IMG/VR virus record: IMGVR_UViG_3300020214_002601
Coordinates: 1 to 45,378 of that record
Length of the DNA stretch: 45,378 bases
Source: a virus
Direction: 5' to 3' (one strand)
A program made the position numbers and the translations under genes. Below are positions 1-44,823 of this stretch, piece by piece (position 1 is the first letter of the stretch; every line of letters begins with the position of its first letter). Under the pieces are notes generated by a model that was given only the letters and a program-made list of their open reading frames with translations, was not told the origin of the DNA and ran no database searches.

Positions 1-79
1 GATCACGCTGATCGTACTTGGGCCCCTCGAGAAGGAAGGACTCAACGAGCATGCGGAGTTCGGACTTGGAGATTCTCAT
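1..79 (-). CDS. N-terminus of a tagged phage protein (partial, cut by window edge)
   Basis: Only the first 26 codons are in the window, reading from the ATG at 79 to the edge. The visible N-terminus is MRISKSELRMLVESFLLEG followed by a few polar residues. It is clearly related to the N-terminus of the next gene upstream (starting at 1667) and carries the same L-R-x-L-[IV]-E-S-x-x-L-L-E-G pattern. A Shine-Dalgarno-like TTTAGGAGC sits directly against the ATG, with only about one base of spacing, which is unusually close. The leader of the 1667 gene looks almost the same (CTTAGGGAGC-ATG). The function of the body of the protein cannot be judged. I infer that the N-terminal segment is a targeting or pro-peptide. 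Confidence 0.6.
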   Translation of the reverse strand, partial: MRISKSELRMLVESFLLEGPKYDQRD

Positions 80-98
80 GCTCCTAAATATAGGGGAT

Positions 99-1667
99 CT
101 AGATCATCCGCCTGATGAGCTGGCGTAAGCTGGATTCGCTCAAGTCACGTTTCCTCAGCACCTCACGTGCTGTCATCGCAACGCTTCCGTTACTGTCGTT
201 CGCGAGCTCACGCACGATGTTGATGTCTGTGCTCTTGTTGTACGCGACAGAGACACGAACGCTGGAGTCATCATCATTTGCAAGCTGACGAAGTAAGCTG
301 GCGGGAGTTGCGTTGTTCTGAGCGACTCCCAGGCGAATGTAGTAATCGGAATTCTTAGCAAGCTTCTGAAGCGCTTGAACAGGAGTCGATGGATTCTTAC
401 CGACAGCCTTGAGAAGATCCCTGTCGGTACGATTCAGCATTCTGTCCAAGAACGAAACATCTGCAAGTGAGGCAAGAGTTTCAGGTGGAGCACGAGGGTT
501 CATAACGACGTGGTAAACAACCTCCTTATCGTTCGCGAGACGTGCGAGCGTTTCAGGAGGGGTTGCCTCATTTTTTGCGATCCTCTGACGCACTTCAGCG
601 TTCTCATCGCGGGAGAGCTTCTCGATGACATCAACGGGAATGCCCTTGTTCTGGGCGAGCATATGTCTCACCCTCCACTCAGGATCATCAGCAAGGAGCT
701 GGGCTATATCATTCGAGACCCCAGGAACCTTCGCGACCTGCTGCTTCAGGGAGGCAGCCTCCGTCTTCGATATACCCTGCATGATGTAGTTGAAACCCTG
801 GACATCACGGGCAGCATCTCTGATTTTCGCTCGAGCGAGTGACACCCCACTGTGACTCTTCACCCGCTCCCCTAAAGTCTCTATAACACCGTCGAAGTCA
901 GCTCCAAGCATGCGTCTCAGACCGCCCTCGTCCATGGCATTATTCGCGCCATCGACCGTGGGCTGCTCACCCGGGGTACCTTCATACTCCACAGTCCCAT
1001 CATCGTTCATGGCTATCGAGACCCACTTCTTCCGGGAGGGAACATCACCCTGGTGAACGAGAGTAAACAGATTGTACTTGGCTACGTAGTTGTAGAAGAG
1101 ATTCGAGGCGTCCGTTCTCACCGTGCACCATTCGGTGTTAGGCTTTCCAGATTCCTTGTTGAGACCCACGATATTACAGCTGTTCTCGCGGCTGGAAGCC
1201 TCGTAGATCTCCCAAGGACCGACCCGATCGATCTTATCACCCTCAATGCTCTGTGAACGATTAACCTCGATCCTTGGCTTCTTTTGATTCGAAAGCTCAA
1301 CAACCCTAAGCATCTCGATTGCGCTCATCGTGGTCGGGTCTGCGGGGGAGGTCCACGATCTGTCTGGAAACTCCGTTTCAATCAGTTTCCTGAAGTATTC
1401 ATTCGTCATGAACTTCCTACCGATGTCTGCGCTTCGAGGCTCGTATTTGATGATGGCATCCAGCGCCATGGGAAACTTATCCTCTGGCATTGGTCTCGTC
1501 GCTCGAGAGCCGAACCTGGCGGACAACCACGTGATTGCCTTGTTACTTAGCCCGTCAATCTCTTCAGTATATGAGCTGAACTTGTCTCTCAACTCTCGTT
1601 GAGAGTCCTTGACTCCCTCAAGGAGCACAGACTCGATAAGACGACGAAGATAAATTTGAGAAATCAT
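99..1667 (-). CDS. WCT-type domain protein with LRV (HEAT-like) repeats and an N-terminal tag
   Basis: A 522-residue protein in three parts. Residues 1-20 are the amphipathic tag (LRRLIESVLLEG) shared with other proteins here. Residues about 150-260 contain a 'TEWCT' segment followed by a FYNYV/LFTLV stretch and a KKWVSIAMNDDGTVEYE strand. This resembles a domain I know from other phage proteins as a KWCT/WCI-type domain of unknown function. Residues about 325-507 are six to seven repeats of roughly 24-26 residues (pattern A-N/D-D-x-x-x-x-VR-x-x-[VI]-A-x-N-x-x-T-P-x-x-[LV]-L-x-x-L), typical of leucine-rich repeat variants that form a curved alpha solenoid. The C-terminus (LRQLIRRMI) again resembles the tag but lacks the Glu. 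The close SD (AGGGAGC-ATG) matches the gene at 79. No catalytic motif is recognised. A protein-binding scaffold is the most I would infer. Confidence 0.85.
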   Translation of the reverse strand: MISQIYLRRLIESVLLEGVKDSQRELRDKFSSYTEEIDGLSNKAITWLSARFGSRATRPMPEDKFPMALDAIIKYEPRSADIGRKFMTNEYFRKLIETEFPDRSWTSPADPTTMSAIEMLRVVELSNQKKPRIEVNRSQSIEGDKIDRVGPWEIYEASSRENSCNIVGLNKESGKPNTEWCTVRTDASNLFYNYVAKYNLFTLVHQGDVPSRKKWVSIAMNDDGTVEYEGTPGEQPTVDGANNAMDEGGLRRMLGADFDGVIETLGERVKSHSGVSLARAKIRDAARDVQGFNYIMQGISKTEAASLKQQVAKVPGVSNDIAQLLADDPEWRVRHMLAQNKGIPVDVIEKLSRDENAEVRQRIAKNEATPPETLARLANDKEVVYHVVMNPRAPPETLASLADVSFLDRMLNRTDRDLLKAVGKNPSTPVQALQKLAKNSDYYIRLGVAQNNATPASLLRQLANDDDSSVRVSVAYNKSTDINIVRELANDSNGSVAMTAREVLRKRDLSESSLRQLIRRMI

Positions 1668-1672
1668 GCTCC

Positions 1673-2098
1673 CTAAGTATTTCCGTTGCCGAGCGTATTC
1701 CGCAGATGCTCATGATAGTCCGTCAAAGCATGATCCTTCGGCTCCACCGCGCGCCAGTCGCCGAGGATGAAGATCCGGTAGGCATCATCACCGTACTTGC
1801 CGATGCCATGGAGCTCCTTCGCCTGGGTCCAACCACCGGTGGCGTACTCGGCGGACATCCGCTTGAGGGTCTGCGTCCGCTTACGCTGCATCCCGAGCGG
1901 TGTGATGAGGGCTTCTAGATCGGTATCGGAAGCAGCTGCGAGCGCCTGCGGTGTGGGCCAGCGGAGGAACATCTCCTCAACGACGGGCTCCATCTGAGCA
2001 CGTTTGGTTAGGTTGAGACACAGGCAGCAGACGAGGATCTTCCAGCCGTCGGGCCAGTACTTTTCCTGGATGAGACCGAATTTGGGGGGAATCCACAT
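1673..2098 (-). CDS. MBD4-like HhH-GPD DNA glycosylase (mismatch T/U glycosylase-like)
   Basis: A 141-residue protein that resembles, over nearly its full length, the C-terminal glycosylase domain of vertebrate MBD4. Shared features are a WxPPK-x-x-LIQE start, DGWKILVCCLCLN, a P-T-P-x-A segment, a PLG-x-x-x-x-R-x-x-T-x-K-x-x-S-x-EY helix pair, the helix-hairpin-helix LHGIGKYGDDAYRIF (residues 96-110), W-x-x-V-x-P-x-DH and Y-H-x-x-L. By family analogy Asp122 in PKDH is the catalytic aspartate. The family removes T or U opposite G after cytosine or 5-methylcytosine deamination, by base excision. There is no FeS cluster motif and no methyl-CpG-binding domain, so this is a single-domain form. A perfect 7-bp hairpin abuts the start codon. 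The gene lies between structural and WCT/LRV genes, away from the replication genes. Confidence 0.85.
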   Translation of the reverse strand: MWIPPKFGLIQEKYWPDGWKILVCCLCLNLTKRAQMEPVVEEMFLRWPTPQALAAASDTDLEALITPLGMQRKRTQTLKRMSAEYATGGWTQAKELHGIGKYGDDAYRIFILGDWRAVEPKDHALTDYHEHLRNTLGNGNT

Positions 2099-2115
2099 GC
2101 AGTTATCTTAACTGC
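2099..2115 (-). promoter_or_regulatory. Hairpin abutting the glycosylase start codon
   Basis: On the transcript, GCAGTTA-AGA-TAACTGC forms a perfect 7-bp stem with a 3-nt loop, followed at once by the ATG at 2098. No good Shine-Dalgarno lies in the usual window. A GGAAA lies just 5' of the stem and would be brought near the ATG if the stem folds. This is the kind of arrangement known for some T4 genes. It may set the translation rate of the glycosylase. The stem is seen directly; its role is inferred. Confidence 0.4.
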
Positions 2116-2137
2116 GGATTTCCACTTTACAGCTGGA

Positions 2138-2515: not shown

Positions 2516-2561
2516 GATATCTCTCTGAACTAATTATCACTCCCGTCCGAAGATGACGCGG

Positions 2562-3362: not shown

Positions 3363-3409
3363 GACTTAGCTCCGGTGGTAAAATTCTATCTAACCACTGG
3401 GATAACTAT

Positions 3410-3673: not shown

Positions 3674-3728
3674 TTTGCCCTCTGTATTAAAAGGACGCAG
3701 AAGGTCATTTTATTCAAAGCTGAATGAA

Positions 3729-6238: not shown

Positions 6239-6284
6239 TGCATACCCCTCTTGTGTTATGTTGGTGTCTTCTTCTAGCCCTTTC

Positions 6285-9200
6285 TCACTTGCATTTCGAG
6301 TAACCGCATGCCTTGCAGGAGAGACAACCCTCCTGGTAGACAAGCTCGGAATTACCGCACTCCGGGCAACCCTTTTCAGTAGATTTAGTGCCATCTTTTA
6401 TGTATCCTTTTAGGACCCGGGCGATCACCCTGCCGAATGAAAACATATCGCTGTTCTTGTCCTTTTGCAACTGCTCCACAACATAAAGGAGCGGAACGTC
6501 ATGACGTAGAGCCAAGGAGATTGTCCTGGTGAAAGCTCCCTGGGTTGGATTGTCGAACAGGTTGATAATATCCTTGAAGACGAGGTTATCATCATCACCG
6601 ACTGGAACCTGGAGGTTATAGGTTGTCACACCACCGCGTCTACCGTTCTTGATGAGAGACCCTGACTTATACCTCTTGGGAATCTCGATATTCTCAGGGA
6701 TTCCGCAGAATACCTCATAGGGCTTATCATCATGTAAACCCACGAGAACGAGCCAGGATTCAGGATTCTCACCGTTGCGGATCGAGACGCGATGGATGTC
6801 ACACTCGAGCGACTTTGGACGTCTTGGGATGAGACGACCGTCGTCCGCCCTCTTCTCTTTCTTCTGCTCGTCGGTCTGGACAAGCACGCCGGTCCGGCAG
6901 CCTTCACGGTAGACCGTGAAACCCTTGCATCCAGACCTCCAAGCTCGGAGGTAAATGTCGTTAACAGTTTCCTTCGTGGCGGAGCTCGGGAGGTTACAGG
7001 TCTTGGAGATTGAGTGATCGATCCACTTCTGCGCTGCTGCCTGGATATCAACCGACTTGACCCAGTCGATGTCGTTGGCGGTACCACCCCAGTATGGACT
7101 CTCCTGCGGGTCCGTCTTGCCGGTGACGTCCATCCACTTCTTGAACCAGTGGTGATAGACCGTGTACTCCTGCCACTTGTCGCCCATGGGATCCACGAAA
7201 TCGACACGCGATGTGAGGTCTCCCTGAGTTATCTTCTTTCTGCGCTTGTAGGATAGGAGGAATGCAGGCTCAATGCCGGATGTGGTCTGCGTGAGAATAG
7301 AAACAGAACCGACCGGTGCTGTGGTGGTGAGCGCAATGTTGCGTCGACCTGTGGTCTGCCACATGTTGCGCGTCTCCGCGCTAAGCTCGCCGACTGCGTC
7401 CATGACATTGTTTAGATACCTGTGGTCCTTCTCCTTCTCGTAGTCCCAGACAGGGAACGCTCCGCGCTCCTTGGCCATGACGAGTGAGGAATAGTGTGCC
7501 CACCGTGCCAGGTTGCGGTATATTACCTCTGTCATTTGAATTGAATCGTCGGAGCCGTACTTGAGTCCAAGCGCTGCGAGCGCGTCACCAAGTCCTGTGA
7601 TACCGAGACCAGTACGGCGGCCGTTGAGACCGGCGGCTCTGATCTTCGCCCAGAGGTCACGCTCAATCTTCTTCACGTGCTCAGGCTGTGGGTCACGATC
7701 GATCTTTGCAAGCACTCGATCGACACATTCAACCTCAAGATCGACAAGGTCATCCATGAGACGTTGCGCTGCATAGACAACCTTTCCGAATCTCTCAAAG
7801 TCAAAGACGGCATTTCCCGTGAAGGGCTCATTCACGAATGTGGTGAGATTAACAACCATAAGGCGGCAGCTGTCATAGGGACTGAGGGGGATCTCTCCGC
7901 ATTGACGACTCGCAAGAATTAGATCAGCTTTGTTTCTGAATCTCTCAATCTCTTCGCTGCCGACCCTGAAGCAGAAAGTGTGAACATCGTCGACGGTTCC
8001 ATTGTAGACATCTTCATTTCCTGCAAGCTCGACTGAAATTACTCGGTGATTGAAGCTCTCAGCAGCAGTCTTGAGTTTGCTCCACGACGCAAATCCGTTC
8101 TGAGTTCCTGTCCGAGATGAGCATCCTGATTTCTTGCAAGCCATCTCCCATTCTTGAGCAAGAGGAACTCTTCCTAGTGTGCTGCGAAGTGATGTGAATA
8201 TTTCAAGCTGCGCCTGGCGCTTCTTTTCACCATTTGAAACATGCATCGCTCTCAATGTTGAAGATCTGCGATGGTTCTTGCCTGCAAGACGGTTTGCATA
8301 CTTGCTGGAGCAAGAATGACCGCAGAAAGAGACTTCACGCCTATCGTATTCTGACCAGAATGGGCTCTTGCACCACTCACACGTCTTTTCTACGTTGAGG
8401 TCACCATTAGCAACTTGCCAGCGATAACCGCTGGATTCTGCCTGGAGCGCGCGTCGTGCCACGCGAGGATCCAAGCTGCAGATATCTGATTTGATGCCAC
8501 AAGAAATTGCGATTTCATAGCAAGTCTCAGAGAAGCTCTTGCCATCTAGCCTAAAGTCATTCAGGAAGATTGGGAAATTGTTCTCCTTGGCGAACATCGT
8601 CCAGTCTGAGATCGAAACGCGTCGATTAATGCTAATTGTCAGCTTCGCGATAGCATCGATAATCGAATCATTCGATGCTTCATAAGCGCGTGGGTTGTTC
8701 ATGCCACCCACTGACTTTGACATTTTCTCAGAGTATGCAGCAAATCTGACAGGGTCTGCTTTGATCTTGAAGATCGGATTATTCTCACCCTTGATCAGGT
8801 CAGCGTGATAGCGATCATGATCTTCCTTGCGCATCAGCATGAGATTGCTAGGGTGATTGTTGAGTGAGTTGAAGTCGACGTGATGAATGACCTCATTCTT
8901 TCCAATCTTCTTGCTGTTGAAATGCTCCCAAATGATCCGATGAGAAGACTTCCACGTTCGATTTCCACCGTTACGAATCCAGCTGTAGTCCTGGGATGTT
9001 GTCGCATGGAGACCTGGCGTTGCCTCGTTGAACTTGCCATTGACGTGATGAGAGATCCAAAGAGAATCACCTGCGATCAGATCTTTCACCTCGCGCTCAC
9101 TTCCGTCACGCATGATCATCTTGTGATTGCCAGTTGCGCGGAATGAGTGGCCACCCTCGACAGTCACGCGATAGATCTGCGCATTCTTTCCAGTGACACG

Positions 9201-10220
9201 AGGATTTCTCATCGTCTTAATGACGATCTTACCGTGTTCATCACATGCAAAGACAGGAATATCGCTCCCTTCGTCTGCGAGTGTCTTGATAGCGACAAAT
9301 CCACGACCATCTGCGACCATGACCTCTGTGTCACCTGTCACGCAAGGATTTGTGGAGATTGTCTTGTAACCTACATCCCTGTAGTTGTCTACGATGCCCT
9401 CGTTGACCACGGTGTCCCAGAACAGGGCGCCGGGCTCTGCTGATGCCCATGCAGCGTCCACAAACTTGTCCCAGACCTGCTTTGCATCGACCATCTTCAC
9501 GATCTCAGCATCTTCTGGATGTGCCTCAACGGGCCAGCGGAGGCAGAAGCTCTGGTTGTGCTCGACTGCCTGCATAAACTCGTCGGTGAAGCGGATCGAG
9601 ATGTTGGCACCCGTCACCTTCTTCAGGTCACGCTTGATGTCTATGAAGGTCTCGATCTCGGGATGGCGACAGTCGATCGTGAGCATGAGGGCGCCACGAC
9701 GGCCACCCTGCGCAACCTCACGGCAGGAGTTCGAGAAGCGCTCCATGAAGACACCGATCCCGTCGGTGCTGCGGGCAGCGTTCGATGTCGGCTGGCCTTT
9801 CGGGCGGATATTGGAGATATCGAACCCAACACCTCCACGTCGCTTCATGATCTGAACCTGCTCCTGGTCGGTGAACAGGATGCCAGCGTAGCTATCATGA
9901 GGCTGCTCGACCACGAAGCAGTTCGATAACGACTGCAGCTGATGCGAATTTCCGATGCCTGACATCGGTGAGCCCTGTGGGACAACCTGGGAGAAATCCT
10001 TCAGGAGACCGTAGATCTCCTCCTCTCCCATCGGGTTCGGATACTTCGATTCGATTCTGGCGAACTCCTTCGCAAGACGAGCGTGCATCTGGTCGGGGCT
10101 TGTCTCTAACAAATTATTGTCAGAATCTCTAAGAGCATATTTCCAAAAAACATTAGGTGCAAGTTCATCACCCTCGAAATAGTCACTAACTTCCTGCTGA
10201 ATACGTTCTTTCGAGTTCAT
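6285..10220 (-). CDS. nrdJ: Class II (adenosylcobalamin-dependent) ribonucleotide reductase with intein
   Basis: A 1311-residue precursor. Removing the 481-residue intein (residues 293-773) leaves about 830 residues, a normal NrdJ size. Family marks are SNCFVVEQP, RRGGVGFDISNIRP, the split STNP|CGEIPLSPYDSCRL active site, TGLGITGLGDALA, TAPVGSVSILTQTTSGIEP and a C-terminal Cys-rich tail ending CGYSKCK that re-reduces the active site. The Cys that begins the C-extein (CGEIPL) corresponds to the thiyl-radical cysteine, flanked by Asn and Glu of NPCGE. The enzyme reduces ribonucleotides to deoxyribonucleotides. It needs B12 and no oxygen-dependent partner, and no nrdB is present. The start overlaps the stop of the upstream homing endonuclease (ATGA), so the two are coupled. 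Confidence 0.95.
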   Translation of the reverse strand: MNSKERIQQEVSDYFEGDELAPNVFWKYALRDSDNNLLETSPDQMHARLAKEFARIESKYPNPMGEEEIYGLLKDFSQVVPQGSPMSGIGNSHQLQSLSNCFVVEQPHDSYAGILFTDQEQVQIMKRRGGVGFDISNIRPKGQPTSNAARSTDGIGVFMERFSNSCREVAQGGRRGALMLTIDCRHPEIETFIDIKRDLKKVTGANISIRFTDEFMQAVEHNQSFCLRWPVEAHPEDAEIVKMVDAKQVWDKFVDAAWASAEPGALFWDTVVNEGIVDNYRDVGYKTISTNPCVTGDTEVMVADGRGFVAIKTLADEGSDIPVFACDEHGKIVIKTMRNPRVTGKNAQIYRVTVEGGHSFRATGNHKMIMRDGSEREVKDLIAGDSLWISHHVNGKFNEATPGLHATTSQDYSWIRNGGNRTWKSSHRIIWEHFNSKKIGKNEVIHHVDFNSLNNHPSNLMLMRKEDHDRYHADLIKGENNPIFKIKADPVRFAAYSEKMSKSVGGMNNPRAYEASNDSIIDAIAKLTISINRRVSISDWTMFAKENNFPIFLNDFRLDGKSFSETCYEIAISCGIKSDICSLDPRVARRALQAESSGYRWQVANGDLNVEKTCEWCKSPFWSEYDRREVSFCGHSCSSKYANRLAGKNHRRSSTLRAMHVSNGEKKRQAQLEIFTSLRSTLGRVPLAQEWEMACKKSGCSSRTGTQNGFASWSKLKTAAESFNHRVISVELAGNEDVYNGTVDDVHTFCFRVGSEEIERFRNKADLILASRQCGEIPLSPYDSCRLMVVNLTTFVNEPFTGNAVFDFERFGKVVYAAQRLMDDLVDLEVECVDRVLAKIDRDPQPEHVKKIERDLWAKIRAAGLNGRRTGLGITGLGDALAALGLKYGSDDSIQMTEVIYRNLARWAHYSSLVMAKERGAFPVWDYEKEKDHRYLNNVMDAVGELSAETRNMWQTTGRRNIALTTTAPVGSVSILTQTTSGIEPAFLLSYKRRKKITQGDLTSRVDFVDPMGDKWQEYTVYHHWFKKWMDVTGKTDPQESPYWGGTANDIDWVKSVDIQAAAQKWIDHSISKTCNLPSSATKETVNDIYLRAWRSGCKGFTVYREGCRTGVLVQTDEQKKEKRADDGRLIPRRPKSLECDIHRVSIRNGENPESWLVLVGLHDDKPYEVFCGIPENIEIPKRYKSGSLIKNGRRGGVTTYNLQVPVGDDDNLVFKDIINLFDNPTQGAFTRTISLALRHDVPLLYVVEQLQKDKNSDMFSFGRVIARVLKGYIKDGTKSTEKGCPECGNSELVYQEGCLSCKACGYSKCK
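7902..9344 (-). mobile_element. HNH-containing intein inside nrdJ
   Basis: A 481-residue in-frame insertion. It starts at Cys293 (CVTGDTEVMV, splicing block A) and ends at LILASRQ just before the extein Cys of CGEIPL. Block B is GHSFRATGNHKMI (Thr363, His366). The middle holds an HNH-type homing endonuclease (HRIIWEHFN then IHHVDFNSLNNHPSNL, residues 445-460) and a possible zinc segment (CEWC then CGHSC). The C-terminal block is VYNGTVDDVHTF. The last residue is Gln and the one before it Arg, instead of the usual His-Asn. Gln is known to work in some inteins. The DNA is visibly richer in A and T than the flanking nrdJ sequence, consistent with recent acquisition. Confidence 0.92.
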
Positions 10221-11095
10221 AGCGAAAATTCTCCACCTTTTATTTGTTCGTCTGTTATTCTAACAAGTTTCTTAGAATGTTTCTTGAACCAAACCGCCTG
10301 TTCTTCATCAGTTATCTTTTTACGAAGTATGATGCTATCGCGAGGATGTTCTGAGTTCATCAATTCTTCTTTTGTTCTACCGTGACCGTGCCAATACGTT
10401 CCATCAACCTGAATGTAGGTATCGATCGTTTTTACGTAGAAGTCAATAAGCCACTTTTCTATCGTGGCTTGCCTTATTACGTTATCAGTTCCGTACTTTT
10501 CACAAAGAAAGCTGTAAATCTGATCCTCGGGCTTTGAAGTTTTGTAAGTACCGTTACGTTTCATGGATTCATGTCTCTTCGCTGCCGCTGCTGCAAAGTC
10601 AGTTCTTTCAACGACTTCTTTGATATCCATGGCGCACTTAACATCCGCTCCGTATCGTGAAGAAAAAGAAGATCGAGATTTATCACGAACATCTTGAGAC
10701 ATCATCGGCCATGGAACTCCAAGATTTTCGAGATTTGAAACCATCCTCTGCTCTCTGATCTCATTTCCACGTGCGGCGAATGTTTTTTTAAGTGTTTCTG
10801 ACCTCTTTTTTCTAACGCATTCAGCTTGACTCGGGTTGGCAACTCCGTATTTCTCAATACAAGTTCGAGATGCTTTTTCTCTAATTTCTGGACTAGAAAA
10901 TTGATGAGTTACGCCGTGTTTCTCGATGCATCTCTCTCTGTTCCTTTTCCATAAGATGCCATCTTTTTTTTGCGCTTCGTTCATACAGCTCTTACTGCAA
11001 AAATGAAATTCAAGATCGAGATTTCTCTTAATGCCTTCGAACTCGTTGAAACATACATCACATGAAAAAGTGCGGGAGGTTACGTCGATGATCAT
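10217..11095 (-). CDS. Free-standing homing endonuclease, Vsr-like/EDxHD-type
   Basis: A 292-residue protein. The N-terminus has a zinc-finger-like Cys set (C12, C15, C33, C37). Residues about 55-100 hold two DUF723/NUMOD-like repeats (CIEKHGVTHQFSSPE and CIEKYGVANPSQAE), which are DNA-binding modules common in phage homing endonucleases. The C-terminal part has PEDQIYSFL, WLIDFYV and YIQVDGTYWHGHG, the pattern of Vsr-like nucleases. The gene overlaps the nrdJ start by four bases. Base composition is clearly AT-richer than neighbouring genes. It probably cuts near nrdJ or the helicase in alleles that lack it. No good SD precedes its start codon. Confidence 0.85.
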   Translation of the reverse strand: MIIDVTSRTFSCDVCFNEFEGIKRNLDLEFHFCSKSCMNEAQKKDGILWKRNRERCIEKHGVTHQFSSPEIREKASRTCIEKYGVANPSQAECVRKKRSETLKKTFAARGNEIREQRMVSNLENLGVPWPMMSQDVRDKSRSSFSSRYGADVKCAMDIKEVVERTDFAAAAAKRHESMKRNGTYKTSKPEDQIYSFLCEKYGTDNVIRQATIEKWLIDFYVKTIDTYIQVDGTYWHGHGRTKEELMNSEHPRDSIILRKKITDEEQAVWFKKHSKKLVRITDEQIKGGEFSL

Positions 11096-12539: not shown

Positions 12540-12547
12540 GAGCTCTC

Positions 12548-15780: not shown

Positions 15781-16026
15781 TCAGATCTTCTTGCGTTTCT
15801 TGCTCGAGCCGCCGAAGGAGCGTTGGGCGACGCTTCTCATATCACGGCGAGGACCGGGAGGACGCATGCCAAGTGGAAGTGAGTAACCTGCGACTGCTCC
15901 TGCTACCGAGAACTCATCAAGACCATCCTCATCCATGCATCCGTCTCCCTCATCCACACCGTAGGCAATCTCGTCGAGTGCCTCCATGATCATGAGACGA
16001 AGCGCCCCCCTGTCGAGTGTTTCCAT
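15781..16026 (-). CDS. Small tagged protein with basic C-terminus
   Basis: 81 residues. The N-terminus GALRLMIMEALDEIAYG matches the tag seen at the ends of several proteins here (L-R-x-M-I-x-E-A-L). It is followed by an acidic stretch (VDEGDGCMDEDGLDEF), a Gly/Ala segment and a very basic tail (GGSSKKRKKI). The start is preceded by TTAAGGAT directly against the ATG, the same close spacing seen at the genes starting at 79 and 1667. The TTAAGG overlaps the end of the HD-domain gene. The function is unknown. The composition would suit a small internal head or DNA-associated protein, but this is inference. Confidence 0.65.
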   Translation of the reverse strand: METLDRGALRLMIMEALDEIAYGVDEGDGCMDEDGLDEFSVAGAVAGYSLPLGMRPPGPRRDMRSVAQRSFGGSSKKRKKI

Positions 16027-32144: not shown

Positions 32145-35100
32145 TTAGATGTCCGCGTTATTTCTTGCTTCGAAGGTTATCGAGACGAACTCTGCTGACT
32201 TCGTGGGCTGCAGGAAGATCTTTCCGCGGATGGTGTTGTTCTCGATATCCGCCTGGGTGGTGGTGGTGGTGTCGATCTGCACCCGGTACCTCTCGACGCC
32301 GCGCTGTGACTGGACCTGCTTCATGATCGGGGTGACCAAGGAGTTGAAGCGGGTGATCGTGGCCTCACGGTTGGGCTCGAAGAGGAGGGTGAAAGCGACG
32401 GCCTTCACACGCCGCCGAATCTCGATGAGGAGTCGACGAACGTTGACGCGGTCGAGCGCGGAGCCTTCGGTGAGCGTCGTCCGCTGACCGTTGATGATGA
32501 TGCCGGCCCCCGGGGTCGAAACGAGCGGGTTGATCCCCGCGTCGTACACCGTGTCAACGTTCTCAGCCAGGAATACAGTGCTGAGCTGCTCGGCCGGGAT
32601 GACGGCGCGGACGTAGCCGGCGGGGGCATTCCAGACGTATCCGATCCTATCATTCTGACCGTAGGCACCCAGGACCATCGTTGAGACGGGCAGGCGCATC
32701 GTCTCCGCCACGCCGGTACCCGGATCGACGGAGACAAGGGTATCCGGGAAGTATGCAGCCCCGAATGAGTTGTTGATACCGCGGTTGCGGAAGCGTGTGG
32801 TGGTGTAGCCCACGTTGACGCTTGGGTAGGAGTCGGACGAGATGGAGGCGGTGATGTAGCTGTTGTTGTCATCCTTCAACTCAACGTCCATGATGTAGAG
32901 GGCATCGAACTTCGTCTGCATCGAGCTGAGGGTGTAATCCGTCACCGATGGGTGACGAACATCCGGTATCGCCAGGAGGCTGATGTCAGAGTATGTCTTG
33001 TTCGACATGATGTCGACCGCTCTACGGTAAGCGGCGACGGTCGGACCATCGAGCTCGCCCTGGTTCGAGTTGTCCATCTCACGACGGATCGCAGTGTCCC
33101 TCATGTAGAACTTATCAGCATCGAAGATGTTGAGTCCATCGAAGCCGCCCTGCATGAAGGTGACAAACTTGAGGTAGGCGCGGGTCGCGGCATAGGAGAA
33201 GTCGACATCGACGTTGACGAACCGTCCGTCGGTTCCTGATAGCACCCTACCACGCTGGTAGATCGCCTCATCCCAACGTGTGTTGTCCACGAGACTGTCG
33301 GTTCCGGTCATCACCTGGATGTTCTCCAGCGTGAAGAGGTTCCTGTTGAAGAGATCCGCGTCGATCACGGAGCCGTTCACAGTTGCAGCGCCCGCGTTGT
33401 CACCGACCCAGGGGCTCTGGTATGACGTGTGATACTTCGGGAAATACTTGGTATATGCATCGAGCGCTCCCGCGTCCAGGATGCTTGAAACCACGGTTGT
33501 TCCGTCATTTGGCTGGGTTGTTGAGTTGCAGACGTTGAACTGCGGGCCCCAGTAATACCTGCTCTCGCCCACGGCGCTGGGATCAGCTGCCGCCGCCCCG
33601 ACGTTGATCGAGTGGCGGAAGAAGACCGGCAGCTCACGGGCATTTGTCGTCGGGACGGTCAGGTGCGCGCTGCTGTCGGACGATCCGGTCGCGAGGAATC
33701 CTGAACCTGACGTGATAAGGTGGTAGTAGCCACGTGAGCCGACGGGCATGGTGCTCGTCGGAACGATCTTATTCATCACATCATCGGAGATCTCAACCCT
33801 GATCCGACGCGACACCTTTCCGTAGAGACCCTCCTCGACAACCTTCTGGGCGTCCGCTGAACGATCGAAGTCGTAGTAGGTGTTAAGGTCACCGATCATC
33901 TTTCCGATGAAAGAGGAGCTGTCAGGATCAAGATCGCAGTTGGGATAACTCTCGTGGACAACGGGATCGTCGTCCGTGTCGCTCCAGTCACGTAACTTGA
34001 TCGTAAACTTGGCGTATGCGTCAGCAGTTACAGGATACTTGATGTTCTCGATCGCGATCTTATAGAGCTTGTTGGAGGTCTCACCATCCGAGCGGGCGTG
34101 GAACCTGAAGAGATCATAACGGGTGCCGAAATTCTGCGACACTATGAACGGGGTCATCGGATGCTGAAAGCGCTCCTCGAAGCCATCGTAGTTCGGGAAG
34201 GTGTCAGTTCCGTCGTTCCTTGACTGTGAGCCGGAGAGACAGAAGACGATCTCCTCGATCGCAGAATCGACGCTGGTGCGGCGGATGAGTGCCTCGGCAG
34301 CTACCCCCGAGCCCGTTGGAACTGCGAAGGCAGGAAGGATGTCATAGTGGTTGTAGAGAACGTAGCCGTGCTCCTCGACGAGCAGCGGGTCCGTGTTGAG
34401 CTTCCTCGGTAAGTACGCGTCAGAGGTCGGATCGAATGATGCTGTCAGGATGCTTGGATAAGCGGCGGAATCCGTGTGACCGTTCAGGAGGAGCACGAAC
34501 TGCTGCTTTCCACCTGTGAGATCTATGGAACCCGTGAACCACCCCTTCGCGGGTGCAGCTGTCGTAGCAGTCGATGAGTAGGTGTCAGAGGTCGCCCCAG
34601 GCGCGGAGCTCGATACAGCGATCTGCACACCGGAAGCTGCAAAGAGGACACCGCGGATGATGGGCTGCGCGGCGGTGGAGGTCTGGACCCCTGCATCCGA
34701 GAGGACCCAGGAACCAGCCGATTCGGACATGTAGCAACCGAGGAAGTAGGTACGACCCGCGATACCGGCCGAGGTGGCGTATGGGTTATTGCCGAGCTGT
34801 CCTGTCCCAGTCTGCACCTTCTGCGCGCCGGCCACGAAACCAGCATACGTCACCTTACCTGCGTTGGCTCCGGTGGTGGAGCGCTTCTTACCATCACCCG
34901 AACCAAGAACTCTCACGTACGTACCAGCCGTGGCATTGTCGAGCCACTGATCCAGCGCGAGCGGCGCGTGATACTTGGATGTGGGATACCCAAACTCCGT
35001 GAGGAACTGTGAGCTGTTGGCAAAGGTGATGGGAACAAAGGCTGTTCCCTGTGTGGCGGTCCCGATAACTCCCGCGGAACGTCCTGAGGGCTCGGCCTCC

Positions 35101-35153
35101 GCTGCTCCACCGGTGCTATCAATCTCGCTTACTGTTATTCCTGGCGCACCCAT
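32145..35153 (-). CDS. Tail sheath protein (copy 1, tube-proximal)
   Basis: 1002 residues. The N-terminus GAPGITVSEIDSTGG, the SAGVIGTATQGTAFVPITFANSSQFLTEFG segment and the C-terminal domain (INPLVSTPGAGIIINGQRT, DRVNVRRLLIEIRRRVKAVAFTLLFEPN, GVERYRVQIDTTTTTQADIENNTIRGKIFLQPTKSAEFVSITF) are those of T4-like sheath proteins. It is much longer than T4 gp18 (659 residues), because of large insertions in the middle that would form surface domains. It is clearly paralogous at both ends to the gene just upstream. AAGGAG lies eight bases before the ATG. Confidence 0.92.
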   Translation of the reverse strand: MGAPGITVSEIDSTGGAAEAEPSGRSAGVIGTATQGTAFVPITFANSSQFLTEFGYPTSKYHAPLALDQWLDNATAGTYVRVLGSGDGKKRSTTGANAGKVTYAGFVAGAQKVQTGTGQLGNNPYATSAGIAGRTYFLGCYMSESAGSWVLSDAGVQTSTAAQPIIRGVLFAASGVQIAVSSSAPGATSDTYSSTATTAAPAKGWFTGSIDLTGGKQQFVLLLNGHTDSAAYPSILTASFDPTSDAYLPRKLNTDPLLVEEHGYVLYNHYDILPAFAVPTGSGVAAEALIRRTSVDSAIEEIVFCLSGSQSRNDGTDTFPNYDGFEERFQHPMTPFIVSQNFGTRYDLFRFHARSDGETSNKLYKIAIENIKYPVTADAYAKFTIKLRDWSDTDDDPVVHESYPNCDLDPDSSSFIGKMIGDLNTYYDFDRSADAQKVVEEGLYGKVSRRIRVEISDDVMNKIVPTSTMPVGSRGYYHLITSGSGFLATGSSDSSAHLTVPTTNARELPVFFRHSINVGAAAADPSAVGESRYYWGPQFNVCNSTTQPNDGTTVVSSILDAGALDAYTKYFPKYHTSYQSPWVGDNAGAATVNGSVIDADLFNRNLFTLENIQVMTGTDSLVDNTRWDEAIYQRGRVLSGTDGRFVNVDVDFSYAATRAYLKFVTFMQGGFDGLNIFDADKFYMRDTAIRREMDNSNQGELDGPTVAAYRRAVDIMSNKTYSDISLLAIPDVRHPSVTDYTLSSMQTKFDALYIMDVELKDDNNSYITASISSDSYPSVNVGYTTTRFRNRGINNSFGAAYFPDTLVSVDPGTGVAETMRLPVSTMVLGAYGQNDRIGYVWNAPAGYVRAVIPAEQLSTVFLAENVDTVYDAGINPLVSTPGAGIIINGQRTTLTEGSALDRVNVRRLLIEIRRRVKAVAFTLLFEPNREATITRFNSLVTPIMKQVQSQRGVERYRVQIDTTTTTQADIENNTIRGKIFLQPTKSAEFVSITFEARNNADI

Positions 35154-35191: not shown

Positions 35192-38100
35192 TTAGACGAA
35201 CTCGACGCCCGCGGGTGTGATGATAAAATCAACCGCGATAAATTCGACCGCACGGGTCGGAACCACAACGATTCGACCGTTGAGCCTGCTCGCCTCAGTG
35301 TCAGCCTGCGTGTTGTTCGTCTCATCGCAGACAATCTTAAACTTCTCAACTCCCGCCTGTGCCTTGATGAGGCTAAGGAGCGGGGTTGCACGGTCCACAA
35401 ATGCTTTCCGAGTTGTCACGTCGTTCGGCTCGAAGAGGAGACCGCGGGCAACGCCGATGATGAGCCTCTTCAGCTCAAGGAAGAGGCGACGAACGTTGAC
35501 ACGATCGAAAGCTGATTTGCTGAGCTGCAATGTCTTTTGCCCGAAGATGACGAACCCGCTGCCCGGGAAAGTGGCGATCGGATTCAGCGAGTTCTCATAG
35601 AGGTAATCACGATCCGCGGCGCTAAGCTTCACCTCAACGTTTGACACGAAGTCGAGACTCGCCCGGTTGAATCCAGCGGGAGCGTACCATGGGTAGGAGA
35701 CCCTGTCGCTGTAGGCGAGCGCACCGAGCGCAGCGACCGAGGCGGGCGCCTTCACACGACGGTTGCTCGTTGTATCGTCCACGAAAACATCGGGGAAGTA
35801 GGTCGCCACGTAGTTGTTGTTGACCACCCGCGCGGTGAGCGCGTCGGTAGTCCTCGTAACGTTCGGCTTCGTCCCAGAATCCTCAAAGATGCGAACATTA
35901 GAGTCGGTGTAGGCTGGCACGTCCATGACATACATACCGAGAGCGTAGTCAGAGAGACGTCGACCGATGAAATCGGTGATCAGAGGCTCTTTGATACCGG
36001 GCGCGGCGATGACATTGACATTGACTGTCAGCTTGTCAGTCATAAGCTTCGAGGCGATCCTATAGGAGTTGACCGCGTTGTTGCTCAGGTAGCTTCCACC
36101 TGGATCGTATCCAAGTCCAGTCCTCGCGGTGGCGGTGGCATCACCGCTGGCGAGCCCAAGAGCTTCAGCGGAGGTCGCACGGTCGCCAAGCTTCGAGGCT
36201 GCGTCATCGAGAATGTTGACGCCATCAAACCCGCCGTAGAAGATGTTGGTGAACTTAGCGTACTCATTGAACTTGTTGAACGTGCTGGCCGATCCGGAGA
36301 GCAGCGAGGCGAAGGTGAGCCTGCTGAGCGCGGAGTCTGTGATCCTGTAATCAACAGTGTTGGGAACGCCGTTCCTGATGTACGCAGCCTCCTTCATGTG
36401 CGCCTCGATCGTGCCTGTCACATCGGAAATTGACACATTGGAGAGGGCAACGCGGGCGAGGGTGAACTTGTTCGCGTTGAAGACGTCCGCATCCGAGCCG
36501 GTGATCAGGGCGTCCAGTTTCTGGATTCCCTGAAACTTGGAGTAGCTGAGCACCAGCGGATTGAACTCACTTCCCGCGTTGGAATCCATGACGGAATTCT
36601 CGATCTTACCAGTGGTTGTGCCAGAGGGCACGAGCTTCTCAAACTTGACGCCCCAGTGCAGGCGGGAATCCGGAATCTCCAGAAGTCCCGGGGAGCCGAC
36701 ATACGAAGATCCGTCAACCTCTCCGCGGGTCGCCTTGAAGCGAAAGGGAAGGGGAGGAATGATCGAGCCTGTCAGTCCCGTCTCAACCGAGCTGCTGCAC
36801 AGGAGACGCGGAAGAACGTCCGCCCCTGCGCCATAGGTCCGCCCACCTTCAGTAAGCGCAGCGGAGGTGTCGGTGAGGGTCTGGGTCGTTCGCACGACCG
36901 GAATCCCGCGGAAACCGAATGGTAGGGCAGTCTTGGGAACTGTGCCCGCATCAAGGGCGGTGGAGACCCGCACACGCACGCGCCGGCTGGCATTCGGGAA
37001 CTTACCGCTGATCATGAGCCGCTGCTCGGCTTCGTCCACAGCATCAAAGTTGAAGGTCACCTTGCGATCACCTATCTTCTTGGCAATGTAATTCTTGCTC
37101 GCTGGATTGAGATCGCATCCTGTGAAGGATTCGAGGACGCTCGTTGATATATCGGTATCGAAAAGATCGCGGATGAGAACGTCGAAGGTTCCGTATGGGT
37201 TGCTGGGATCCGTCGAGGCCTTGATGTTTGAGATGGAGACCTTGAAAAGATCATTGCCAGACTCACCGTCCGTCAGCGTCTCGAGGTGGAAGAGGTCATG
37301 CTCAAGGCCGCTGAAGGGCTGGGAGATGAAGGACGTCGTCCGGGCACCGGTGAAACGGGTGTCGAAGCGCCCAAAATTCTGCAGGTAAGAGCTCGATGAA
37401 CCCGAGGCGATCGCGATGCAGTTCTGTCCGCTGGTATCAAGGGGAGCGATCTCCTCCTCGACTGGGAAGTCAAGGTAGAGGACATGCTGCTCAGCCTGGA
37501 ACTTGCGTGGGTCGGTGTTTAGAACCTTTCCAAAGTAGTCGATTGCGTTCGGATCAAGGGACGCAGTGTAGATTCGGATGCCTGAAACCCCATCGGTGGC
37601 ACCGAAAGTGGAGCCCTGCGATGATGAGACGACGAACTTGAACCTCTTGTATGTGGATGACGTCGTGCTCAAGTCCGTTGAGGCAACATCGTCGATTGCC
37701 GATCCGTTACCGGTCCACTGCGATCCAGCTCCGGTCATATCAAGAACCATGCCCCGGGCTCCCGTCGGAAACATCAGGACGCCGCGAACAACGTTCAGGG
37801 TGTCGGCGGAGGGTGGGCTGAAGCTTGGGTTGTCGCTGAAGACCGGAAACCCACGCCACTCGGATGGGGTTGAGGAGTCGGAGGGTAGCACATGCCGCGC
37901 GACGAGGAACTGAACAGCACCTGACTTCCGCGCATCGTCTGGTGGCAACGCTACGGTCGAGCCGGTTACCTTAAAGCCTGCATTCCTCACGCTCCCCGAC
38001 GCGAGGGTGACGGCGGCGTGGGTGGTGCTTGTATTCGCCCCAGCGCCGAGGACGCGGATGAATGTCAGGGCACCCTTGTGCTTCAACCACTCATTTGCAG

Positions 38101-38305
38101 CATACGTCGCCGGACGATTTGGATCCAGTGCCCCAAACCTCGCCGAGTAGTCCGTGAACGAAGCCACGGTGGTCGGCACAAAAGCAGGTCCGGAGGCTGC
38201 CGCACCGATGAGCCCGCCGGGGGTGCCTGTAGGCTGGGCACCCGGGGCTGTAAGCTCAATCTCCTGCTCAAAGAATCCAGGAGAGCGAAAGATCTGTTCC
38301 GACAT
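35192..38305 (-). CDS. Tail sheath protein (copy 2, paralogue)
   Basis: 1037 residues. It has the same N-terminal layout (SPGFFEQEIELTAPG, GLIGAAASGPAFVPTTVASFTDYSARFG, YAANEWLKHKGALTFIRVLGAG) and the same C-terminal domain (LNPIATFPGSGFVIFGQKT, DRVNVRRLFLELKRLIIGVARGLLFEPND, GVEKFKIVCDETNNTQADTEASRLNGRIVVVPTRAVEFIAVDF) as copy 1. The middle domains differ strongly between the copies. Both N- and C-terminal parts needed for sheath assembly are intact, so neither looks like a pseudogene. They may co-assemble or form different parts of the sheath. TTAGGAG lies six bases upstream of the ATG. Confidence 0.92.
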   Translation of the reverse strand: MSEQIFRSPGFFEQEIELTAPGAQPTGTPGGLIGAAASGPAFVPTTVASFTDYSARFGALDPNRPATYAANEWLKHKGALTFIRVLGAGANTSTTHAAVTLASGSVRNAGFKVTGSTVALPPDDARKSGAVQFLVARHVLPSDSSTPSEWRGFPVFSDNPSFSPPSADTLNVVRGVLMFPTGARGMVLDMTGAGSQWTGNGSAIDDVASTDLSTTSSTYKRFKFVVSSSQGSTFGATDGVSGIRIYTASLDPNAIDYFGKVLNTDPRKFQAEQHVLYLDFPVEEEIAPLDTSGQNCIAIASGSSSSYLQNFGRFDTRFTGARTTSFISQPFSGLEHDLFHLETLTDGESGNDLFKVSISNIKASTDPSNPYGTFDVLIRDLFDTDISTSVLESFTGCDLNPASKNYIAKKIGDRKVTFNFDAVDEAEQRLMISGKFPNASRRVRVRVSTALDAGTVPKTALPFGFRGIPVVRTTQTLTDTSAALTEGGRTYGAGADVLPRLLCSSSVETGLTGSIIPPLPFRFKATRGEVDGSSYVGSPGLLEIPDSRLHWGVKFEKLVPSGTTTGKIENSVMDSNAGSEFNPLVLSYSKFQGIQKLDALITGSDADVFNANKFTLARVALSNVSISDVTGTIEAHMKEAAYIRNGVPNTVDYRITDSALSRLTFASLLSGSASTFNKFNEYAKFTNIFYGGFDGVNILDDAASKLGDRATSAEALGLASGDATATARTGLGYDPGGSYLSNNAVNSYRIASKLMTDKLTVNVNVIAAPGIKEPLITDFIGRRLSDYALGMYVMDVPAYTDSNVRIFEDSGTKPNVTRTTDALTARVVNNNYVATYFPDVFVDDTTSNRRVKAPASVAALGALAYSDRVSYPWYAPAGFNRASLDFVSNVEVKLSAADRDYLYENSLNPIATFPGSGFVIFGQKTLQLSKSAFDRVNVRRLFLELKRLIIGVARGLLFEPNDVTTRKAFVDRATPLLSLIKAQAGVEKFKIVCDETNNTQADTEASRLNGRIVVVPTRAVEFIAVDFIITPAGVEFV

Positions 38306-40285: not shown

Positions 40286-40288
40286 CGA

Positions 40289-41461: not shown

Positions 41462-41489
41462 GGCCTACCTCTTCAAGTAAATAGGACGC

Positions 41490-43289
41490 TCAAAGATCGT
41501 AGCGTATCGATTCAAATAATACCTTGAGCAAGCTCCGTTGCCTTGAGTCCTGGATGTCACCGTACGTCCCCTTCAGGATGCTCCAGTACCTGTCCTTCAT
41601 CTCCTGGTTCAGGGTCTGCGGCACGTAGCGATCGAACGAGGCGCGATCATCGGCTGCGAGGAACTGCCGCATCCGAGTTCCTGAGATCTGTATCGTCTCG
41701 GAACGTGGGACTGGCATCTGCTGGAACTTCGAGGCCGCGACAGGATCACGCATCATGTCCGTGAGTTTCTGCTTCGAGTACTTACCTCGGGCGTCCTCAT
41801 CATCCGAGTAGAACACAAACTTACTGACGACGTCCTTCATCTGGCGCATCTTATCGATCGCGAGTTGTAGAGGTGACTCAGAGGTTATGATGAGGGTCGC
41901 ATTCGGATAGTCACGATGGAACTGCGGCTCAAGCACCGCCTTCCACGCATCGATCATGATACCCGGTGGGAGCTCGTCACGCCCCGCGGTTGATGTGATG
42001 ATGAGCGCCTCATCGCATTCCTTCGCAGCCCTTCCGATCATCTGCCAGTGCCCCTCGTGCACTGGTTTTCCAGCCACCACGAAGATGCCGATGCTGATCC
42101 CGTTCTGGGTCCCGATCTCGAGACGCTTCATCACGTTCGTCTTCGTGGTCAGGAAGAGATCCTCCTGCCGCTGGATGAGCGATTTCGGATGAGTCAGGAG
42201 ACCAAGACGATTCGCTATCGCCGAATCGAAATAGCACTCCTGGTGGACGTCCTCAAGGACCTGATCAAGCTCGGATTCCGGTATGTTTCGTCGTTGGGCA
42301 GGAGCATGCTCGGCAGCGATCTCCCTCGCGATCGCCACGATCCCGTTCCAGTACTCCTGCTCTTCCTCTTTCGTTCCTGCACGAAACTTCTGCTTGATCG
42401 CCTGCCTATGCTCTGCATCGTGCTGATCGAAACGAAGGGCCTTGTAGAGCGCCTGCGTCGCCGATGACGAGAAAACAGAGCCCTCAGCAGCCGGGTACTC
42501 ACCCTCTGCGGAGATATCGGCATCGGTGGACAGGGTCGTCTGGAAATCCGAGAATATGCTGTAGATCGCGTCCACGATTTTGAGCGGTCGATCCTCCGTC
42601 TTATCATCGTAGGCTGCCCTTAGATTATCGAACACACTCGCGTATCGATTCTGGATCATCCGGCTGCGGATACCGTCACGCAGACCCCCCATGGTGGCGA
42701 AGCTTCCCTCGAACAGGATGGGATACATGTTGATCCCGAGTGCCCTTGCGTATTCCTCGAGCCGCGGCTGACCATCCTCGGGTGTTATGTTGGTGGCGAG
42801 ATAGGTTCCCGTTGCCTTGTATCTCGACGTTCCGTAGAGCGTTAGAAAGATGCCATGCTTCTGTGGGTATTCGCGGCTGATGGTCGGCTTTCGCTGCACG
42901 AACTCCAGGAAGAACTCGGTCCCGGGTGGGATTTCCCGGGTGCCCGGGTGAACGCGGGCGAGGTGGCTGTGAATGAGGGAGTACTGCGCGGTTCCTGAGG
43001 ATGACGTGCGGACATCTTCCTCACGTGCAGCTAGTCCGCGGGCTTCTCCTGGATAGATGATGTTACCCTTGTAGGCGATGTACCAGTTCTTGGTGTAGTC
43101 GTTGGGATCGAACGCGTTGTTCCGACGGAGCAGCGTGAGCTTCGTCCCATCGATCTTCTCGACGATCTTTATATTGGGATCATCCAGGAATTTCTGCGCT
43201 TTCTTCCTGTCGTTCGCGCGCTGCTTCGGGGAAGCATCGCTCCTGACCATCGCAAGCCTCAGATCCTCGATCGAAATGTTGGTGGACAC
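41490..43289 (-). CDS. Fusion: polynucleotide-ligase-type nucleotidyltransferase + NMNAT/cytidylyltransferase-type domain, tagged C-terminus
   Basis: 599 residues from a GTG at 43289. Residues about 1-290 form a ligase-type domain: motif I VEKIDGTKL with Lys45 as the expected adenylation site, a TEFFLEFVQRKPT segment (motif III-like) and AAEGSVF...LYKALRF (motifs IV-V, Glu269 and Lys283). Residues 401-545 form a nucleotidylyltransferase fold: GIFVVAGKPVHEGHW (HxGH at 411-414) and ISGTRMR (535-541), as in NMN adenylyltransferases. The C-terminus SLLKVLFESIRYDL resembles the shared tag. Ligase domains use ATP or NAD, and NMNAT-type domains make or exchange NAD, so the pairing suggests nucleic-acid sealing linked to NAD metabolism. 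The exact substrate is unknown. It begins directly after the nucleotidyltransferase stop. Confidence 0.82.
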   Translation of the reverse strand: MSTNISIEDLRLAMVRSDASPKQRANDRKKAQKFLDDPNIKIVEKIDGTKLTLLRRNNAFDPNDYTKNWYIAYKGNIIYPGEARGLAAREEDVRTSSSGTAQYSLIHSHLARVHPGTREIPPGTEFFLEFVQRKPTISREYPQKHGIFLTLYGTSRYKATGTYLATNITPEDGQPRLEEYARALGINMYPILFEGSFATMGGLRDGIRSRMIQNRYASVFDNLRAAYDDKTEDRPLKIVDAIYSIFSDFQTTLSTDADISAEGEYPAAEGSVFSSSATQALYKALRFDQHDAEHRQAIKQKFRAGTKEEEQEYWNGIVAIAREIAAEHAPAQRRNIPESELDQVLEDVHQECYFDSAIANRLGLLTHPKSLIQRQEDLFLTTKTNVMKRLEIGTQNGISIGIFVVAGKPVHEGHWQMIGRAAKECDEALIITSTAGRDELPPGIMIDAWKAVLEPQFHRDYPNATLIITSESPLQLAIDKMRQMKDVVSKFVFYSDDEDARGKYSKQKLTDMMRDPVAASKFQQMPVPRSETIQISGTRMRQFLAADDRASFDRYVPQTLNQEMKDRYWSILKGTYGDIQDSRQRSLLKVLFESIRYDL

Positions 43290-43290
43290 C

Positions 43291-44823
43291 TCAGCTATCC
43301 CACAGCACAGCTTCGATAAGCCGATTGATTCGCCTCACCCTCGACTCATCCGTGCGGGGTTGATCGTCATCCTCGACGAAACCCTCCTGCCCACGAACCT
43401 TGTACTTCGCGTAGAAGTCCTTCTTCATCCCATCGAGATCGATGGTGGAGGAGCTGGTCTCAGGTATCAGCTGTCGGAACGTCTCAAGCACCTTATCCTT
43501 CACTGCGAGATCCTCCTTGGGATCTGTCGCTGAGAGCCGCTGCGCACGGGCTCCAAAGAAGCGATCAACCATCTCCTCGTAGGTCTTGACGATCTCCTGC
43601 GGCGACATACGCTCCTTCATCAGCCCAAGCACGCCGAGGAAGGATCCGAAGCTCTCCATGTCCTCCTTCGTGGGTGGTGGATTCGCACCGAGGAGACCCT
43701 CGAATATCGCCCTCACATCCCGGGTTACACCCGATCGTTCAGCCCGGGTGAGGTACCTGTAGACCTCATCACCGTTGTATTTCCAATCGAGACGCTTGTA
43801 ACGTTCGCTGTAGCCGGTAACAAGATCGATGGACTTAAGTGGCCTGAGCGGGGCTGGAATCTTTCTCGTTGTCAGGCGCCTGACGTGGGCCTCCGCCTCC
43901 TTTCGGATATTCTCCCGTGATTTTCTGGCGGTGGCGGTTGCGAGTATCTCACGCTCACGCTGCTGCACCATCCTCTCGATCTCCTCCGGTGGAGGTGGAA
44001 CGTAGCTCGGATCGGTTGTCATCCTCACGGATGGTTCCTCGGCGGTGGCGGAGGGGGTCGCCTCACGTGCGTTTATCGGGGGCGGTGACCTGACCGCCGC
44101 GAGGGACACCAGCAGGATCTTGTGAGCGAGACCCTTCACGCCGGCGATGACGTCACGCCAGGCCGAGGAGTAGGAGAATTTCGCCCACTCGGATGGACGA
44201 CCCGCTTCGTACTCGGAACCCTCGAAATCGATCTGGAAGAACGTGTCGCCCTCACCCTCAGGCGCGTCCGGGTCCCAGGTGTAAGCGAAAAGGGCGTTGA
44301 TCTGGAGCGAACCAGGACTCCTCTTGTTGTGACCGACGTACGCGATCTTCGGGGTGAGCTGCTGATCCTCACGCCGGTTGAGGGTCGCGAAGAGCCCGTC
44401 CATCCTCTCGGCTGGTACCGTCAGGTCGATGTCACCCACCGTCGGCTTGTACCTGATGAACTCCTCATCGGAGAGGGTCTCGGGCGGCGCGAAGAGGTGG
44501 GACGAGGAGCCGTTGAAGGCGAAGCCTGACCCAAAGATATCGTCACGCTGGGCCCGATCCCAGAGCGTCTCACCGTGGTCCTGCCTGAACGCGTCATCGA
44601 GCACCCGCAGCATCTCGATCACATCACGGCGGAGATCCTGCCGCTGGATCCGTCCAGCCCGAAGATCGATCTTCTCAGCGTAGGCCTCACGACCGCGAAA
44701 GGTCCTGACGCGCTCGCCGCCCTGCACGAGGCCCGTCGCCGGATCGCGGATGAGCGCGCGGGTATTGCCGCCCTCCTGCAGCTGAGGGTTCGGTCCGAAC
44801 ATGAACCTGGCGATGCTGAACAA
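43291..44823 (-). CDS. Pol-beta-superfamily nucleotidyltransferase-like protein with C-terminal tag
   Basis: 510 residues from a TTG at 44823, with GAGGGGAG six bases upstream. The central NGSSSHLF...KPTVGDIDLTVP (Gly105-Ser, Asp131, Asp133) fits the Gly-Ser ... D-x-D signature of the Pol-beta-type nucleotidyltransferases, although the spacing is longer than usual. Asp199 in FFQIDFEGSEYEAG may be the third carboxylate. An HNKRSPGSLQINALF segment and a PSEWAKFSYSSAWRDVIAGVKGLAHKILL helix follow. The second half is charged and helical. The C-terminus RVRRINRLIEAVLWDS carries the tag. The gene is directly coupled to the ligase-NMNAT fusion. Adding nucleotides to RNA or a protein is possible; the substrate is unknown. 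Confidence 0.75.
   Translation of the reverse strand: MFSIARFMFGPNPQLQEGGNTRALIRDPATGLVQGGERVRTFRGREAYAEKIDLRAGRIQRQDLRRDVIEMLRVLDDAFRQDHGETLWDRAQRDDIFGSGFAFNGSSSHLFAPPETLSDEEFIRYKPTVGDIDLTVPAERMDGLFATLNRREDQQLTPKIAYVGHNKRSPGSLQINALFAYTWDPDAPEGEGDTFFQIDFEGSEYEAGRPSEWAKFSYSSAWRDVIAGVKGLAHKILLVSLAAVRSPPPINAREATPSATAEEPSVRMTTDPSYVPPPPEEIERMVQQREREILATATARKSRENIRKEAEAHVRRLTTRKIPAPLRPLKSIDLVTGYSERYKRLDWKYNGDEVYRYLTRAERSGVTRDVRAIFEGLLGANPPPTKEDMESFGSFLGVLGLMKERMSPQEIVKTYEEMVDRFFGARAQRLSATDPKEDLAVKDKVLETFRQLIPETSSSTIDLDGMKKDFYAKYKVRGQEGFVEDDDQPRTDESRVRRINRLIEAVLWDS

Follow-up and report, generated by a model that had tools for sequence, protein, structure and literature searches.

Candidate prohead-targeting peptides at the termini of unrelated proteins in a T4-superfamily phage fragment and its uncultured relatives

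Which proteins travel in the phage head and are injected is known for few phages, and proteomics of cultured phages is the only way in which they have been identified. Here we describe short terminal peptides (tags) shared by otherwise unrelated proteins of the virus record IMGVR_UViG_3300020214_002601 from IMG/VR, whose 45,378 bases, called the window below, are a fragment of about 45 kb of a T4-superfamily phage. The closest described system is the capsid-targeting sequence of the T4 internal proteins IPII and IPIII (MKTYQEFIAE), which is likewise short and terminal, ends in [LI]-x-E, carries its protein into the core of the prohead and is a substrate of the prohead protease gp21. Cleavage by gp21 occurs after [LI]-x-E (PMC9958956, PMC9026906) and shortens gp23 by 65 and gp24 by 10 residues (PMC9958956); in the T4 protein Alt, both termini are processed (PMC9026906). 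In phage SPN3US, the protease gp245 has a C-terminal propeptide that was proposed to target it into the prohead (PMC7411985); head cleavage sites of the phiKZ type are [SA]-x-E (PMC9026906). In phage P1, approximately 30 N-terminal residues of DarB are sufficient for sending a reporter into the head (PMC9024508).

Compared with these systems, the window tags share with the T4 targeting sequence the position at the termini of otherwise unrelated proteins and a gp21-type site [LI]-x-E within or ending the tag, but they differ in sequence, being L-R-x-[LI]-[IV]-x-E helices that lack an aromatic core, and no homology to MKTYQEFIAE was found. Furthermore, more proteins per genome are tagged than in T4, C-terminal versions are clear, and targeting and cutting are at the stage of predictions. 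The best-supported reading is that the T4 capsid-targeting sequence is the nearest known counterpart, which the window tags would resemble in the way they work and not by sequence homology. The likeness to SPN3US gp245 lies in the use of a protease C-terminal peptide, since protease C-termini match a cargo C-terminus here; the SPN3US propeptides are long and of the phiKZ [SA]-x-E type, whereas our tags are short and carry [LI]-x-E. The P1 Dar proteins, unlike the tagged proteins, have neither a consensus nor a T4-type core. Our literature search found no paper describing this tag.

The original prediction had listed five terminal peptides, and all of them are present at the positions it gave, namely at the N-termini of the genes starting at 79, 1667 and 16026 and at the C-termini of the genes at 43291-44823 and 41490-43289, all on the minus strand. 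The core [LI]-x-E-[AS] is found in all five, whereas the strict consensus under which they had been announced, L-R-x-L-[IVM]-E-[AS], fits only two. The tag MRISKSELRMLVESFLLEG (23..79), read directly from a gene truncated by the window start, ranked second of 13,971 positions under a class-A tag profile built from distant phages. A 522-residue protein of LRV/HEAT-type repeats (99..1667; Pfam LRV, 8.4e-21) begins with MISQIYLRRLIESVLLEG (1614..1667; possible cuts LIE/S and LLE/G, a slash marking the cut here and below), and an 81-residue protein of unknown function without Pfam or PHROG match (15781..16026) begins with METLDRGALRLMIMEALDE (15970..16026). At the other end of the window, a 599-residue fusion of a ligase (EKIDGTK motif) with an NMNAT/cytidylyltransferase-like part (GKPVHxGHW and ISGTRMR; 41490..43289), assigned by PHROG 27149, cytidylyltransferase PHROGs and homolog alignment, ends with SLLKVLFESIRYDL (41493..41534), and a predicted nucleotidyltransferase of 510 residues (43291..44823) ends, behind an acidic linker, with VRRINRLIEAVLWDS (43294..43338). 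A sixth tag, overlooked before, is the C-terminal SLRQLIRRMI of the repeat protein within LSESSLRQLIRRMI (102..143), corresponding to RLRQLIRRML in the 647-residue relative from genome G002, which ends with LNERRLRQLIRRML. The repeat protein is thus tagged at both ends, for which we propose the two-end processing of T4 Alt as a parallel.

A loose pattern, L[RK]x[LIM][IVMF](x)E[AS], matches 5 of the 72 protein ends (three of 36 N-termini, two of 36 C-termini) and not one of the 397 internal 30-residue segments (Fisher p = 7.6e-5, which is optimistic because the pattern was chosen after the data had been seen). The pattern of the original prediction was post hoc as well, which lends some credit to the idea that the peptides are a product of chance or plain common descent, that is, unrelated short terminal helices or duplicated paralogous small proteins sharing an N-terminus. 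We consider this highly improbable: the tagged window proteins come from unrelated families, the tags occur at N- as well as C-termini, and they are more conserved than the bodies of the proteins that carry them.

This conservation was evident in homologs retrieved from IMG/VR, including the genomes G001 (142.9 kb) and G002 (171.5 kb), whose genes were called by a simple home-made gene finder and may in some cases have wrong starts. Between the repeat protein and its relative, 17 of the first 18 residues are identical, compared to 184 of the remaining 476 (39%). The 81-residue protein retains LRLMIMEAL in both G001 and G002 despite insertions in the part that follows. Twelve nucleotidyltransferases share a layout of folded part, acidic linker and helix-like terminal peptide, and ten of them retain [LI]-[IVL]-E-[AS] in this peptide. 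Similarly, ten of eleven ligase-NMNAT homologs end with L-[LFY]-E-[AS] and the remaining one with LLEH. The ligase homologs of Campylobacter phage CP220 and Vibrio phage phiKT1024 carry no tag, so that the ligase tag looks like a lineage-specific addition. At the window edge, the 3' part of a further protein (44843..45376, minus strand) is encoded, whose own N-terminus lies beyond the window; its homologs in G004 and G005 begin with MRITEAALRRILREE and MKITEARLRQILREE, likewise neighbor the nucleotidyltransferase and share the C-terminus INWG with the window protein.

No gene for a capsid, scaffold or prohead protease (S77 included) was recognised in the window, which is a fragment; the head module was considered in relatives, where the nucleotidyltransferase and ligase genes adjoin the capsid gene. 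Peptidase S77 (PF03420, gp21-type) is present in four of seven relatives, both long ones included, with scores of 89-93 bits (Pfam cut-off 27). It aligns with T4 gp21 (PDB 5jbl, E = 3.4e-17) and keeps the segments of the catalytic His and Ser, GECDHP and SSRGVGS, which correspond to GELNHP and SSRGLGS of T4. A gp23-type capsid protein was found in six of the seven, and all 23 capsid proteins compared contain LLENQ...[LV]L[RK]E/[SATQ] near residue 60, in the region where T4 gp23 loses its 65 residues, with a predicted cut site, LL[RK]E/[SAT], that matches the tag core. A gp21-type protease and a suitable capsid site, for which the original prediction had advised looking, are thus both present in relatives.

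The prohead proteases of related genomes themselves terminate in peptides such as ADRINRLLNEVLKDE. When a profile made exclusively from prohead-protease C-termini (17 ends, 12 distinct) was run over the window proteins, the C-terminus of the nucleotidyltransferase came first of 14,187 positions with 14.1 bits, the next position reaching 7.6; with protease ends from distant genomes only, the values were 16.4 and 8.5 bits, and the top ten also held the ligase C-terminus and the N-terminus of the repeat protein. Such a match would be unexpected if the tag were an amphipathic helix for another destination, be it the membrane of the host, a compartment for replication or a common partner protein, with L-x-E as a by-product of helix composition. 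The peptide is indeed short, charged and amphipathic, and the docking partner required for head targeting is only postulated, but we regard another destination as improbable, also in view of where the tags end and of their association with S77, as described below.

In uncultured phages, a common form of the tag recurs, M-K-I-T-x3-L-[KR]-x-I-I-[KR]-E-E, of which the window tags, judged by their sequence, are a divergent subtype. The common tag is most similar to the propeptide of T4 gp24 (MAKINELLRE/S), of which gp21 removes the first 10 residues (PMC9958956), but gp24 is a shell protein and thereby differs from cargo; other parallels in T4 are gp22 (MLKEQLIAE/A), gp67 (MEGLIE/A) and IPIII (MKTYQEFIAE/A). 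Written as a DNA pattern, M-[KR]-I-T-x3-L-x-x-I-I-x-E-E retrieved at least 120 stretches from viral contigs. The cellular genomes searched, amounting to 257 billion bases, gave 9 stretches on 6 contigs, each belonging to a metagenome-assembled genome; the tag-dense contigs L382, L386 and L387 among these genomes are probably misbinned phage contigs. One of these contigs, NHDW01000006.1 (305,838 bases), itself carries S77, and in a second genome S77 is located on another contig.

We collected 178 non-redundant tagged proteins, selected by residues 1-15 only. Their residues 16-22 run on as L-x-x-[LVI]-[LIM]-x-E, and a second [LIVM]-x-E with its Glu at residue 21 or 22 is present in 109 of them. 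Relative entropy is 0.80 bits at residue 22, 0.20 at residue 23 and at background (about 0.1) beyond. Since conservation collapses after the L-x-E near residue 22, the conserved peptide stops at the predicted gp21-type cut, which is the anatomy of a propeptide. A stricter site, [LIMF]xE[AGS] within residues 15-34, occurs in 62 of the 178 tagged proteins, compared to 60 of 697 untagged N-termini (p = 2e-16) and to a mean of 23 and a maximum of 36 in shuffled sequences, an excess that helix composition would not lead one to expect. With a profile derived from other phages, G001 and G002 yielded 10 N-terminal matches above threshold and none at approximately 86,000 internal positions, which bears out the terminal enrichment anticipated by the original prediction and further argues against chance or common descent as the origin of the tags. 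In G003, a single internal match was obtained at residue 609 of a 986-residue open frame (L038:8475-11435), in which the ligase-NMNAT and the next tagged gene appear to be fused, with the tag in mid-frame. Within one genome, codons of shared tag residues are identical with a frequency of 0.61 (0.39 expected), indicating that some tag copies are recent duplications, as common descent would have it.

The distribution of S77 points in the same direction. It was detected in 28 of 42 tagged contigs, compared to 1 of 29 control contigs drawn with random 14- and 16-base words. S77 is present in all 13 tagged contigs that reach 100 kb, in 18 of the 26 that reach 60 kb and in 10 of the 16 with 30-57 kb; the size-matched comparison gave 10 of 16 tagged and 0 of 23 random contigs. 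This association is not expected for a helix with another destination. In the 14 tagged contigs without S77, neither an HK97-type protease or capsid nor, in a search that had no positive control, a T4-type portal was found, and these contigs are probably fragments missing the head module. A phage combining the tag with a head of the HK97 type, which would be a counter-example, thus did not turn up.

Considering these observations together, we find it probable that the tags are targeting peptides for the prohead core, placed at either end of cargo and core proteins and cut by the S77 protease. The tag would be a short amphipathic helix, N- or C-terminal, that docks, while the prohead is being assembled, on its protein core and thereby brings the attached protein inside. 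There, the S77 prohead protease, itself ending in the same kind of peptide, would cut after the Glu of [LI]-x-E, within the tag or at its end, and free the protein. The nucleotidyltransferase, the ligase-NMNAT and the repeat protein would persist in the head and be passed to the next host together with the DNA; some small tagged proteins may be core components that are digested. Core binding, cleavage, retention in the virion and injection are steps that we infer, for the injection of the three large window proteins by analogy with T4. The original prediction had gone further and taken all five proteins as packaged and delivered; targeting plus proteolysis is supported by the match to the capsid cut site, the protease C-terminus, the L-x-E boundary and the co-occurrence with S77, but some small tagged proteins may be degraded core proteins and not injected cargo.

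In an alternative scenario, most tagged proteins would be components of the scaffold core, which dock and are then digested or expelled at maturation like T4 gp67 and gp68, without delivery to the host. A number of the tagged genes encode small proteins (about 60-160 residues), two are located between the protease and scaffold genes, just as the genes for gp67 and gp68 adjoin gp21 in T4, and gp67 contains many L-x-E sites in addition to its MEGLIE/A start. However, folded enzymes are tagged as well: although the Pfam search gave no match for most tagged proteins, the known folds include AAA_33 and zeta-type kinases and a GNAT, besides the ligase-NMNAT. Moreover, the tags end at one L-x-E, after which unrelated sequence follows. 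We therefore regard a predominant scaffold role as rather unlikely.

Several points weigh against prohead targeting as the function of the tags. The argument is built on sequence computation. Descent confounds the co-occurrence of tags and S77, as tagged genomes have capsid proteins that share 44-82% identity and form two groups. The window tags scored below threshold with the profile of the common tag, and no tag was among the top matches of the capsid cut-site profile in the window. Tagged genes cluster near protease or head genes in two genomes, G019 and G026, and in a third, G008, only if its contig is circular, but G001 and G002, which are relatives of the window itself, show no such clustering. 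Finally, the DNA pattern of the common tag is absent from T4, HTVC008M, S-RIM2, immuto and Mel-JY01, whose protease is, or should be, of the same type; a tblastn search of the isolates with a 20-residue tag also gave no match, the query being too short. In the sixth record examined, the 484-kb metagenomic phage LR756508, the DNA pattern detected three tags.

A broader and more tentative proposal, on which we remain somewhat doubtful, is that a large uncultured group of the T4 superfamily uses one interchangeable helical address code, placed at either terminus, for the protease, the end of the capsid propeptide and many unrelated cargo proteins, making the injected set readable from the genome. 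If this is true, a terminal code ending at a protease site would list the injected proteins of many uncultured phages from sequence, point to unrecognised counter-defence or take-over proteins and supply new tags with which proteins could be loaded into phage heads. For the window, the injected set would include its three large tagged proteins, namely the nucleotidyltransferase, the ligase-NMNAT and the repeat protein. The nucleotidyltransferase is recognised by a VGDIDLT motif identified by eye and belongs to PHROG 19290 (unknown function). Its predicted structure has a mean pLDDT of 63, with low values in the linker and a helical tag of low confidence, and a fold search returned no significant match, those to alarmone-synthetase-like folds being weak. 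Searches of the nucleotidyltransferase and ligase-NMNAT sequences against solved structures matched nothing.

Other tagged genomes contain a second class of tag, MKLLxENWRKFLTE, whose resemblance to the targeting sequence of T4 IPIII speaks for prohead targeting. In G026, arrays of proteins (L371:13745-15895 and L372:7060-8545) begin with MKLL(I/M)ENWRKFLxE, which may be a second cargo tag. A C-terminal motif of the scaffold protein, xRWxxLAGI, recurs near a terminus of a few other proteins of the same genomes (L346:1422-2009; L031:17370-18791) and is possibly a third address peptide. G001 contains approximately 15 small adjacent genes starting with MKPGDLV or similar (L030:2129-7830), apparently a tandem paralogous family.

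The remaining genes of the window include a T4-type set with two sheath-like proteins, a gp19-like tube protein, neck proteins, UvsX, gp32 and a DnaB-type helicase. The large chain of ribonucleotide reductase (6285-10220) is split by an intein with an HNH domain, and a homing-endonuclease-like gene (10217-11095) directly adjoins it. Among the tail genes, a protein of 389 residues (17085-18254) shows a weak match to the palm of family-A DNA polymerases. The two sheath-like proteins are encoded in tandem (32145-35153 and 35192-38305) and are very large, with 1002 and 1037 residues; both end in a sheath C-terminal domain, whereas T4 has one sheath protein.

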